Below, piece after piece: positions 16,539-21,196 of a stretch of DNA of 64,000 nucleotides. How positions within the stretch are numbered: position 1 is the stretch's first letter; every line of letters begins with the position of its first letter. The stretch is taken from contig SZOZ01000009.1 in NCBI GenBank assembly GCA_030263455.1, positions 62,001-126,000 of the forward strand, written 5' to 3'. The translations under genes were made by a program, and so were the position numbers. The stretch comes from Synechococcales cyanobacterium CNB. Its GTDB lineage: Bacteria > Planctomycetota > Phycisphaerae > Phycisphaerales > UBA1924. The notes under the pieces are model-generated. The model ran no database searches and was not told the origin of the DNA. It saw only the letters and a list, made by a program, of their open reading frames with translations.

Positions 16539-18626
16539 TCAGACCTGGACCTTGCGGTTGTAGACGAACCACTCGAGCATCATCACGCCGAGAGCGGCAA
16601 GCAGGAGCCAGGGCCAGAGGCGGCGGTTGACGTTCGAGCGCGAGGGGTCGATGGCGACGACGTCCGTGCCAGCGAGCGAGAGAGATGAGGCCGCGCCGAC
16701 ATCGGACTCGTCGGGGTCGAGCAGGCTGGCGGCGAAGGGGCGCAGGGCGCGCGTACCGACGGCGAGGTCCGCGGGTGTGCGCTCGCCGCGCCAGGTGACC
16801 TCGTGCACGCCGGCCTGTCGCACTGGGCCGTAGACGATGCGCCCGTCGGCTGCGGGCGTGAGCGAGACTTCGGTGCGGTCGGGCAGTCGGATGGCGACGT
16901 CGGCCGCGCCCTGCGGGAGGCGGTCGGTGAGGACGCTGCCGGGGCGAACGGAGCGGGCGTCGAGGCCGAGGTGGGAGGGATCCTGGCCGAGGTAGTTGAG
17001 GGCCTGTGCGATGAAGACGGGGAATGAGACGTAGAAGGGCCAGTAGGAGTCGGCGGGGTTGAAGGCGACGATGACGGCGCGGAGGTCTGCGGAGGCGAGG
17101 TCGAGGATGGCCGGGCCGCGGTCGGTCTCGGCGATGACGGTGATCGCGCTCTCGGGTCCGGGTTGGACGTTGCGGGTGGTGGAGACGACGACGTTGTCGA
17201 GGACGAGGCCGCGGAGCGCGGGGTGGTCGCGTCGCCAGTCGATGAGGACGCCCGGCTCGTCCGGGCCGAGGTCGGCCGCGCCGAGCGGAGGGGGGGGGAC
17301 AGCACCGAGAACGAGGTAGCGGCCGGGGGGCATGGTCGGGCGGTCGCCCGGTGGTGGGAGCCAGGCATCCAGCACAACGACGTCGTATGCGCCGGTTTCG
17401 CCGCGGCGCGAGGCCGCGAGGTACTCGTCGGGCGTGTACTGGATGAGTTTCGCCAGCGGCAAGCCCTGGAGCGCGGACACGAGGAAGAGGCTCCCCTCGG
17501 TGACGACGGCGACGGAAAGCTGGCGGGCCGGGGGGACGACGAGCCAGGCGCGATTGTCGATTTCGAGCACGTCCGGTCCGTCGCCGGGGAGGAGGCGCAC
17601 GGCGAAGAGACCGCCTTCGGGGCGTTCGAGGCGGAAGACGAGACTGGCCGTGCCGGGCCGCCAGAGGTCGGGGGGGGGCGACGTGCCGTCCGCGAGCGTG
17701 GGCGCGTGGGTGGTCGCGGGGGGGATGGTGACGGGCCTGATTCGCTCGACGACGCCGTCGATGACGAGTTCGAGTTCGGCGCGTCGTTCGGTGCGGTCGG
17801 TGCTCTGGAGGCCGACGAAGACGGTGAGTTCCGTGGGGTTGTCGTAGGTGCGTTCGGCGCGGAAAGCGGTGACGGCGAGGTTGGCGGCGTCGGGCGTGCC
17901 GAGGCGCGTGAACTGGACCTTGTCCTCGACGCCGGTGAGAACGCGCTGGGCATCGGGAAGCCGGCCATCGGAGAAGAGGTGGAGCGCGACGCCGCGGGTC
18001 TTGAGGCCCTCGACCGTGACCGCGCCGGTTTCCTCGACGAGCGTCTGGTCGGGCAGGTGGGCGCGGGCGAGGCGGACGGCCTCGTCGAGGCTCGATGGCG
18101 CGGCGGTCGGCTCGATGGCGTTGATGGCGGCCCTGAGCGCGGTCTTGTCGCCCGTGAACTGCTGGCGCACCTCGGCGGTCTGGTCGAAGGCGATGACCAT
18201 GGCCTCATCGGCGCGGTCCGATCCGAGGAGGCTCTCGCCGCGGAGCGAATCGACAAGCCGGACGGCCTCACGCTTGGCGGCGTCGAGGCGCGACACACCG
18301 CCCTCGCCGTCCGTGCTCGACATGCTGGCGGAACGGTCGATGAGGATGACGTGCTGCAGGCCGCGGGGAACCTTGCCCTGCATCTCGGGCTGGCCGACCG
18401 CGACGAGCGCGGCCGCGAGCACGAGGAGTTGGAGCAGCAGGAGGATGTTGCGGCGGAGGCGTTGGAAGGGGGCGTTGGCCTGCAGGTCCTGCACGGCCTT
18501 CTTCCAGAGCAGCGTCGTGGAGACCTCGACCTCGCGACGGCGGAGTTTCAGGAAGTAAAGGATGATGAGCGCAGGCACCGCGATCGCGGCTGCAACGGCG
18601 GCAACGAGCGGGGTGAGCCAGGTCAT
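16539..18626 (-). CDS. BatA-like membrane protein with VWA domain
   Basis: 695 residues. It starts with a BatA N-terminal unit: helix (LVAAVAAAIAVPALIILYFL), KLRRREVEVSTTLLWKKAVQDL, then a second helix NILLLLQLLVLAAALVAVG. A von Willebrand A domain follows (about 90-240) with MIDAS motif DRSASMS. After it are beta-rich extracytoplasmic regions, a GATase-like segment (YDVVVLDAWLP, about 410) and a final helix WPWLLLAALGVMMLEW near the C-terminus. It is the last gene of the minus-strand MoxR operon and overlaps the DUF58 gene by 4 bp (ATGA), so the two are translationally coupled. Bat proteins with MoxR and DUF58 are thought to act in envelope complex assembly; the substrate is unknown. Confidence 0.88.
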   Translation of the reverse strand: MTWLTPLVAAVAAAIAVPALIILYFLKLRRREVEVSTTLLWKKAVQDLQANAPFQRLRRNILLLLQLLVLAAALVAVGQPEMQGKVPRGLQHVILIDRSASMSSTDGEGGVSRLDAAKREAVRLVDSLRGESLLGSDRADEAMVIAFDQTAEVRQQFTGDKTALRAAINAIEPTAAPSSLDEAVRLARAHLPDQTLVEETGAVTVEGLKTRGVALHLFSDGRLPDAQRVLTGVEDKVQFTRLGTPDAANLAVTAFRAERTYDNPTELTVFVGLQSTDRTERRAELELVIDGVVERIRPVTIPPATTHAPTLADGTSPPPDLWRPGTASLVFRLERPEGGLFAVRLLPGDGPDVLEIDNRAWLVVPPARQLSVAVVTEGSLFLVSALQGLPLAKLIQYTPDEYLAASRRGETGAYDVVVLDAWLPPPGDRPTMPPGRYLVLGAVPPPPLGAADLGPDEPGVLIDWRRDHPALRGLVLDNVVVSTTRNVQPGPESAITVIAETDRGPAILDLASADLRAVIVAFNPADSYWPFYVSFPVFIAQALNYLGQDPSHLGLDARSVRPGSVLTDRLPQGAADVAIRLPDRTEVSLTPAADGRIVYGPVRQAGVHEVTWRGERTPADLAVGTRALRPFAASLLDPDESDVGAASSLSLAGTDVVAIDPSRSNVNRRLWPWLLLAALGVMMLEWFVYNRKVQV

Positions 18627-19588
18627 CGCAGTACCCCCCTTCGCCGCATGTAGTCGAGGAGCAGCACGTCGATGGGCGTGTCGGAGCGGACCGTGAGGAG
18701 CGTGATGTCGCGGCGGGCGCAGAAGGTTCGCAACTGGTCGCAGTAGGCGGCGAGGTTGGCCTTGTAGCGTCTGAGAAGGGGCGCGCTGACGGTGATCTCG
18801 GCGAAGTCGGCGTCCTCGACATCGCGCAGGCGGAGGTCGCCGGCGATGTCGGGCTCGAGTTCCTGCGGGCTGAGCACCTGGAGGCAGAAGACGTCGTAGC
18901 CACGCCCCATGAGCAGTCGGAGGCCGGTCTCATAGCCCTCCTTGTAGAAGAAGTCCGACATCACGACCATGACGCCCTTGCCGCGGCGCGAGAGGGCGAT
19001 GCGCTTGGCGGCCTCGGGGAAGTTGCTCCCGCCCTCGGGGCGGAGCGAGCAGAGCCAGGCGGCGAGTTCGTGGGTGCGCCGGCGGCCGCGCAGGTCGCGG
19101 ACGGCGGACATGATGCCGGTGTGCGGGGCATCCCCGGATTCGCTCGCGCTCGTCCCCGGCGTGGCGGGCGTTCCGATGGCGGTCATGGCGACGCGGTTGT
19201 AGTTGACAAGGCCGACGTAGCCGAGGGCCATGGCGGCCTGCTGCATGAAGAAGAACTTGTTGGGCTGGCCGCAGTCGTGGCTGGCGGAGCAGTCGACGAC
19301 GACGTGGAGGCAGAGGTCTTCCTCTTCGAGGAACAGTTTGAGGAAGAGGCGGTCGAGTCGGCCGAAGATGTTCCAGTCGATGTGTCGCAGGTCATCGCCG
19401 ACGACGTAGGGGCGGTGGTCGGCGAACTCGACGCTCTCGCCGCGCTTCTTGCTGCGGCGCTCGCCCTTGAGCTTGCCGGAGAACATTTTGCGGCTGGTGA
19501 CGTCCAGGCGCGAGACTCGTGAGATGAGTCGGCTGTCAAGCAGCTCGTCGAGGGATGCGGGTCGCTTGGGGTTCTCTGTTCGCAGCAT
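18623..19588 (-). CDS. DUF58 domain protein
   Basis: 321 residues, soluble. It has the DUF58 signature FADHRPYVVGDDLRHIDWNIFGRLDRLFLK split around residue 60, and a degenerate von Willebrand A fold starting LHVVVDCSASHDCG (MIDAS DCSAS) and continuing to GVMVVMSDFFYKEGYETGL. DUF58 proteins partner MoxR ATPases. The start ATG 19588 is 3 nt from the stop of the GxxExxY gene. The 14 bases right before the start are two 7-mers (CGGACCC CTGACCC on the coding strand) in place of a normal ribosome site, so expression may depend on coupling to the gene upstream. Four-base overlap with the downstream VWA gene. Confidence 0.92.
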   Translation of the reverse strand: MLRTENPKRPASLDELLDSRLISRVSRLDVTSRKMFSGKLKGERRSKKRGESVEFADHRPYVVGDDLRHIDWNIFGRLDRLFLKLFLEEEDLCLHVVVDCSASHDCGQPNKFFFMQQAAMALGYVGLVNYNRVAMTAIGTPATPGTSASESGDAPHTGIMSAVRDLRGRRRTHELAAWLCSLRPEGGSNFPEAAKRIALSRRGKGVMVVMSDFFYKEGYETGLRLLMGRGYDVFCLQVLSPQELEPDIAGDLRLRDVEDADFAEITVSAPLLRRYKANLAAYCDQLRTFCARRDITLLTVRSDTPIDVLLLDYMRRRGVLR

Positions 19589-19634
19589 GGGTCAGGGGTC
19601 CGAACGCAGAGGACGCAAAGAAGGCGCAGAGGAC
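19589..19634. repeat. Short repeats at 3' flank of GxxExxY gene
   Basis: Two GGGTCNN 7-mers (19590-19603 on the plus strand) abut the DUF58 start codon. Next, CGCAGAGGAC occurs twice (19605-19614 and 19625-19634) separated by GCAAAGAAGG. The repeats encode the last residues (SVSSAPSLRPLRSDP) of the GxxExxY protein. Together with the repeats at 20086-20126 they bracket that gene. Confidence 0.7.
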
Positions 19635-20074
19635 ACGGAGACGGGATCGGGGTGGGAAACCCTTCGGCCGAGGGCCTGGGAGTTGATGCGGCGATAGACG
19701 CCCTTTGTGAGCAGCGGAACGTGGAAGTTGATGAGCAGCCCGAGCGGAAGGTCGGCGACGCGGAGGTACGTGAGCAGTTGCGCGAGGTGCACGTCGGCCA
19801 CGGCCTCGACGGCCTTCAGTTCCACGACAACCGCCCTCTCGACCACCAGATCGAGCCGCTGGCCGTGGAGGTCCACGCCCTTGTACCGCACCGGAACGGC
19901 GACCTGGCGCGCCACTCGCAGGTTCTGGGACGCGAGTTCGTGGAGCATGGCCTCCTCGTAGAGACGCTCCAGCAATCCCGGGCCGAGCGTCCGATGCACC
20001 CCGATCGCACAACCGATGATGCGCTCGCTGACCTTGTTCAGGGCGTCGGGGATGTCGGGGTGCCGTGTGTCCAA
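19592..20074 (-). CDS. GxxExxY family protein
   Basis: 160 residues. It carries the name-giving motif G-L-L-E-R-L-Y (about residue 33, in HRTLGPGLLERLYEEAML) and the core ending RLDLVVERAVVVELKAVEAV, with the D...ExK pattern of PD-(D/E)XK nuclease-fold proteins. LINFHVPLLTKGVYRR follows. The function of the family is unknown. The start is TTG 20074 with AGAGGAAG about 7 nt upstream; that ribosome site is partly formed by the flanking repeat. It lies between moxR and DUF58, whose direct adjacency is the norm, and has repeats on both sides, so it looks like an inserted cassette. The gap to DUF58 is only 3 nt. Confidence 0.85.
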   Translation of the reverse strand: MDTRHPDIPDALNKVSERIIGCAIGVHRTLGPGLLERLYEEAMLHELASQNLRVARQVAVPVRYKGVDLHGQRLDLVVERAVVVELKAVEAVADVHLAQLLTYLRVADLPLGLLINFHVPLLTKGVYRRINSQALGRRVSHPDPVSVSSAPSLRPLRSDP

Positions 20075-20085
20075 ACCAGTTCTTC

Positions 20086-20126
20086 CTCTCTGCGATTTCC
20101 GCGTTCCTCTCCGCGAACTCCGCGTT
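20086..20126. repeat. 21-bp tandem repeat 5' of GxxExxY gene
   Basis: On the minus strand, AACGCGGAGTTCGCGGAGAG plus G is followed by AACGCGGAAATCGCAGAGAG plus G: two 21-mers with four differences, ending about 11 nt before the TTG start. The unit itself contains purine-rich GAGAGG that supplies the ribosome site. 21 is three times 7. Confidence 0.75.
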
Positions 20127-20131
20127 CTGCT

Positions 20132-21196
<1,065 letters not shown>

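Follow-up and report, generated by a model that had tools for sequence, protein, structure and literature searches.

Gene organization of the locus

The window, which is the whole 64 kb stretch of DNA that was analysed, carries on its minus strand three consecutive genes in the order MoxR, GxxExxY and DUF58, assigned from profile matches (Table 1). This confirms the position that an earlier note, made from the letters alone, had given to the GxxExxY gene. The note also held that MoxR and DUF58 genes are normally adjacent, as is seen in relatives, and that the GxxExxY stop codon lies 3 nt from the DUF58 ATG, as it does.

Table 1. Genes and repeat features at the GxxExxY locus (positions in the window)
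Feature	Position	Strand	Evidence
MoxR-type AAA ATPase gene, upstream operon neighbour	20132-21196	-	Pfam AAA_3 PF07726, E 8.6e-64
Left inverted array, CRCNRAG units	20088-20126	-	repeat analysis; orthologous array in sister genome G008
Left unit CGCGGAG	20118-20124	-
Left unit CGCGGAG	20109-20115	-
Left unit CGCGGAA (one mismatch)	20097-20103	-
Left unit CGCAGAG	20088-20094	-
Left-flank 21-mer pair, 86% identical	20083-20124
AGGAAG, Shine-Dalgarno-like, inner edge of left array	20082-20087	-	direct reading; presumed ribosome site
GxxExxY gene, 160 aa, TTG start, predicted PD-(D/E)XK nuclease fold	19592-20074	-	TIGR04256, PF13366, alignments, AF2, fold match
Right inverted array, CRCNRAG units	19603-19640	+	repeat analysis
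Right unit CGCAGAG	19605-19611	+
Right unit CGCAAAG	19614-19620	+
Right unit CGCAGAG	19625-19631	+
Right unit CACGGAG	19634-19640	+
Right-flank 20-nt pair, 80% identical	19605-19644
DUF58 gene, downstream neighbour	18623-19588	-	PF01882, E 3e-26

Both flanks of the gene are arrays of the heptamer CRCNRAG in inverted, inward-facing orientation, with four units per side (left spacing 9-12-9, right spacing 9-11-9). Pairs of such units with a period of 8-10 occur only seven times when the two strands of the whole window are taken together, three of them at this locus. The earlier note had described the gene as bracketed by short repeats of two kinds. The bracketing stands, with a 21-mer pair in the left flank and a 20-nt pair with CGCAGAGGAC in the right one; the idea of two different repeats was rejected since both sides consist of inverted CRCNRAG heptamers. 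The repeats were also said to supply the ribosome site and the end of the protein. Consistent with this, the AGGAAG motif, whose role in ribosome binding is presumed, is 7 nt from the TTG start codon, and the right array read on the opposite strand encodes the last ~15 residues (SVSSAPSLRPLRSDP).

Protein sequence analysis and predicted structure

The window protein scores 137 bits against TIGR04256 (cut-off 35) and 133.5 bits against PF13366 (PDDEXK_3, cut-off 22), and by these profiles it is a clear member of the GxxExxY family. The motif that names the family is intact (GLLERLY). Residues E35, D74, E84, K86, Q98 and Y102, in alignment numbering counted from the first residue after the start, are all present, and D74, E84 and K86 are invariant or nearly so in an alignment of 47 sequences. 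The AF2 model is confident (pLDDT 86.8, pTM 0.81); the tail encoded by the right array is predicted to be disordered, pLDDT falling under 50 for residues 142-154 and 156-159. The predicted structure is a PD-(D/E)XK fold whose best match is the Cas4 protein SSO0001 (4ic1; 100 residues with rmsd 3.2, Z 9.2). Other entries of the fold search are lambda exonuclease, Hjc and restriction enzymes, Cas4 alone exceeding the usual background; a PDB search gave no sequence relative. The protein thus resembles the PD-(D/E)XK nucleases Cas4, RecB and lambda exonuclease in predicted fold and catalytic residues, but its gene is not adjoined by CRISPR or recombination partner genes. The open-access papers searched held neither a function or repeat association for GxxExxY, TIGR04256 or PF13366 nor a description of the CRCNRAG repeat sequence.

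Flanking arrays in relatives and in other phyla

A GxxExxY gene is found in 158 of 163 genomes of the same bacterial family. A higher-scoring type, flanked by arms, has a patchy distribution (84 of the 163 genomes), and a lower-scoring paralog is nearly universal. Inward-facing CRCNRAG arrays with at least two units on both sides are present at 94 of 107 family loci; the same layout is found once on the opposite strand and in 0 of 103 outer flanks. It recurs at 32 of 44 loci from other phyla, including Bacteroidota, Acidobacteria, Chloroflexi, Cyanobacteria and Nitrospira (controls: one on the opposite strand, none in outer flanks), and an archaeal locus of Methanoperedens has a weak version of the arms. 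A motif-free test, scoring the upstream flank against the reverse-complemented downstream flank, gave a median of 51. Control medians were 17 both for shuffled flanks and for the direct orientation, 18 with outer flanks and 22 with the arms of other loci. The score exceeds the 99% shuffle level at 95 of 107 loci and is low in the other 12. The layout across related loci is far beyond chance. The earlier note had taken gene and flanking repeats for a cassette between operon genes and proposed to look for the same flanks in relatives; the cassette recurs, its length having a median of 524 nt, and the next ATG follows after a median of 13 nt. The following gene is co-oriented in 69 of 100 cases (median 13 nt).

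The catalytic residues go together with the arms. In arm-flanked copies the residues E, D, E, K, Q and Y are conserved at 97-100%. The armless paralog, of which 30 copies were compared, has another residue in place of the K throughout (M or L in 26), has mostly lost the E, Q and Y, and has arms in 0 of 29 cases. The PD-(D/E)XK core recognized in the earlier note is therefore intact where arms are present and conserved jointly with them. Given the change of the catalytic K to M or L, the armless paralog is probably a non-cleaving, domesticated form. One such near-universal armless gene (L002, G000:C2:543630) adjoins a ketosynthase-like gene.

Matching of left and right arms

Arm units vary in type from locus to locus (CACAGAG, CACGGAG, CGCAGAG, CGCGGAG, CGCGAAG and others), and the two arms of a locus vary together. 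Left and right arms correlate with r 0.95 at unit position 2 and r 0.83 at position 4, values reached in 0 of 10,000 permutations, and when arms are swapped among loci of one genome 0 of 10,000 arrangements match as well. The first unit spacing is the same on both sides at 79 of 97 loci, against 29.7 expected (maximum 45 in 5,000). Copies at the MoxR site have an arm similarity of 0.80 within a locus versus 0.58-0.61 between loci. At an aldehyde-dehydrogenase-like site, occupied in one genus by copies of the same protein clade, these values are 0.88 and 0.71-0.73, and the own partner arm is the best match in 6 of 6 cases. Gene conversion between inverted repeats can by itself homogenise arms. 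Protein columns 107-108, near the carboxyl terminus, are associated with unit type (z ~5), a weak signal that is confounded by phylogeny.

Residence between MoxR and DUF58 and mobility of the cassette

About two dozen genomes carry GxxExxY between MoxR and DUF58. Copies from other sites, 82 in number, group in a single clade (support 100/98). All MoxR-DUF58 copies fall outside it, together with a few neighbouring copies that either are local duplicates or have unrecognised flanking genes. Distances between the resident GxxExxY proteins track those between the MoxR proteins (Mantel r 0.49, 0 of 5,000 permutations, n=22). The arms at this site differ among genera yet match left to right. The gene has been lost in places: in the sister species G007 the MoxR-DUF58 junction is 50 nt long and has no GxxExxY gene. 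The window copy is thus an old resident rather than a fresh insertion. The earlier note favoured a non-autonomous cassette; recent insertion of such a cassette is not supported, given the position of the MoxR-DUF58 copies outside the 82-copy clade, their co-divergence with MoxR, their diverse but matched arms and the lack of near-identical sister copies.

In the MoxR-DUF58 junction of G001 both arms are kept around an internally deleted GxxExxY gene, possibly a step from cassette to short palindrome. The gene-less junction of G007 holds a different palindrome, GCATAGGTCTCATGGGACCCACAGGTCCTATGC. The corresponding junctions of G115 and G173 have array remnants of the GGCACTAG type that resemble the repeats of a four-helix-bundle family described below. 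Copies at the same place without the repeats are limited to a few decayed ones, such as those of G088 and of G035, where the left arm is lost.

An ordinary small transposon, in which the gene and its terminal inverted repeats move as a unit with GxxExxY as transposase, would account for the inverted termini, for the patchy presence across genomes and for the empty sites between operon genes, which exist, as the earlier note anticipated, both at MoxR-DUF58 (G007) and at the counterparts of other cassettes. We consider this explanation unlikely. No pair of copies within a genome exceeds 62% identity among the copies fetched from 30 multi-copy genomes, and the closest relatives of a copy are found in other genomes, in many cases visibly at the same site, so that the whole cassette is unlike a frequent jumper. 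This speaks against hopping of the entire cassette; an insertion sequence would be expected to leave near-identical copies at several places in a genome, and the fetched copies include none. The old residence at MoxR-DUF58 points the same way. At the empty sites, the flanks in the nearest genomes have diverged too far for a target-site duplication to be read. Carriage by plasmids or phages is weakened as well: the gene is almost absent from plasmids, with 6 of 72,556 records matching, and one scan of viral contigs yielded no confirmed relative.

Dispersed repeats

The repeat load of a genome follows the presence of the gene. Copies of a two-unit pattern have a median of 8 per genome (up to 121) where a cassette-type gene is present and of 0 where it is absent, each cassette adding up to two counts, which inflates the low end of the distribution and not its tail. 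At least five dispersed repeats are found in 49 of 84 genomes with a cassette-type gene and in 4 of 79 without, three of these four being less than 90% complete. Many dispersed repeats are palindromic doublets of 74-75 bp or 120-168 bp. Solo copies resemble the cassette arms of their own genome (0.83) more than those of others (0.67; 2 of 20,000 permutations, 8 genomes). At three loci (L168, L178 and L179) CACAGAG doublets enclose an inverted pair of a different unit, of the CACAGATGGACACAGATG type.

The genome of the window has one clear solo palindrome, a doublet of CACC-type pattern whose unit type is unlike that of the resident cassette, and the arms of the cassette are not visibly repeated elsewhere in that genome. 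With a single clear doublet of unlike type, activity of the window copy is not indicated and it may be inactive.

Comparison with REPtrons and with TIGR02436 genes

In the REPtron, or RAYT-REPIN, system a short repeat flanks the gene in inverted copies and is dispersed in the form of inverted doublets; RAYT orthologues at one site have different repeat classes, their most similar copies lie in other genomes, and the gene unit appears not to transpose whole (PMC3116915, PMC3686654, PMC6006769). GxxExxY cassettes share these five traits: the gene is bracketed by inverted copies, and inverted doublets are dispersed in relatives, the window genome holding the one clear pair. They differ in their enzyme, a PD-(D/E)XK nuclease by prediction instead of a HUH Y1 transposase (PF01797); the latter has no match in the window gene, which matches PF13366 and TIGR04256 only. 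Their arms differ too, being tandem heptamer arrays with 8-12 nt spacing, without the GTAG/CGTC tag and hairpin of REPs. Since both the HUH enzyme and the GTAG-type hairpins are absent, the GxxExxY cassette is not a REPtron.

Genes of RAYT type (Y1_Tnp) from the same genomes have mostly long matched hairpin arms of their own (GGCCCCGAAGGGGCC..TGTAGCCACGGGTG), in agreement with expectation from the literature. Ten of these 12 loci (L376-L387) have inverted-repeat scores of 51-170, and they are without CRCNRAG arrays. G077 and G089 have cassettes and no Y1_Tnp match. RAYT was therefore rejected as the mobiliser of the CRCNRAG repeats, its arms being different and cassettes occurring in its absence.

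TIGR02436 genes, which code for four-helix bundles, are like GxxExxY genes bracketed by matched inverted arrays in genomes of the same family, at nearly all of 30 loci (L388-L417). Their protein is unrelated to GxxExxY and their array unit is another one, of ~9 nt (GGCACYAGG, GGCAATAGG and GCGAGTGG types); CRCNRAG is found at 2 of the 30. A search of open-access papers for TIGR02436 led nowhere. RAYT, TIGR02436 and GxxExxY genes differ in their arms, so each family has its own, and such family-specific arms in three unrelated gene families point to cognate pairing.

A proposed partnership of nuclease and repeats

The recurrence of the gene with matched arrays in many phyla suggests that enzyme and repeats work together. 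The explanation that we favour, with moderate confidence, is a REPtron-like partnership of nuclease and repeats in which a PD-(D/E)XK enzyme takes the place of the HUH transposase. The GxxExxY protein would bind the heptamer arrays as DNA, probably with one set of subunits per arm, and nick or cut at them. Repair copied from another array, or from arm to arm, could then preserve the likeness of the arms at a fixed site and now and then seed short doublets of the arrays elsewhere. Movement of the gene cassette as such would be rare, most cassettes staying in a small number of permissive gaps within operons. Counting against this explanation are the four genomes with at least five repeats and no cassette-type gene, the lack of visible further copies of the arms in the genome of the window, the weak association of protein columns with unit type and the 12 loci with low scores for inverted arms.

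We find it improbable that the arrays are instead operators or binding sites for a host task of GxxExxY in repair, replication or immunity, with other machinery dispersing them and gene conversion matching the arms. The long vertical maintenance would suit such a role, as would a predicted fold close to those of Cas4, lambda exonuclease and Holliday resolvases, and gene conversion alone can make arms alike; the patchy presence of the gene, the repeat load that follows it and the cognate pairing indicated by the three gene families argue against it. It is very improbable that the arms are RNA elements that pair in the operon mRNA to hide the GxxExxY ribosome site or to be cut by RNase III so that the operon stays expressed, for although they are inverted, with a Shine-Dalgarno-like motif at the left one and a next gene that is mostly co-oriented, the same units are dispersed outside cassettes and arm mismatches have no G.U bias (206 wobble-compatible versus 241 not; 31 versus 72 at the MoxR site), so that the pressure seems to act on DNA and not on an RNA stem.

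The favoured nuclease-repeat partnership would tie GxxExxY, a widespread family labelled only by its motif, to a specific DNA word, and the arms that change together locus by locus offer a direct and cheap functional test through binding or cutting of CRCNRAG arrays. It would also explain where one class of short palindromic repeats of bacteria comes from, and the architecture of REPtrons would have arisen more than once with unrelated enzymes. More tentatively, and with some doubt, we suggest that GxxExxY and CRCNRAG form a second, HUH-independent class of repeat partners, spread over many phyla, that cuts its own arrays, maintains the likeness of the arms through break repair and disperses short palindromes. 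TIGR02436 proteins, with arrays of their own, may represent a third class that is built in the same way.

A four-helix gene of G053 (G053:C1:2250992-2251306) sits where the sister species G050 has a GxxExxY cassette (L076), one gap being used by two element families.
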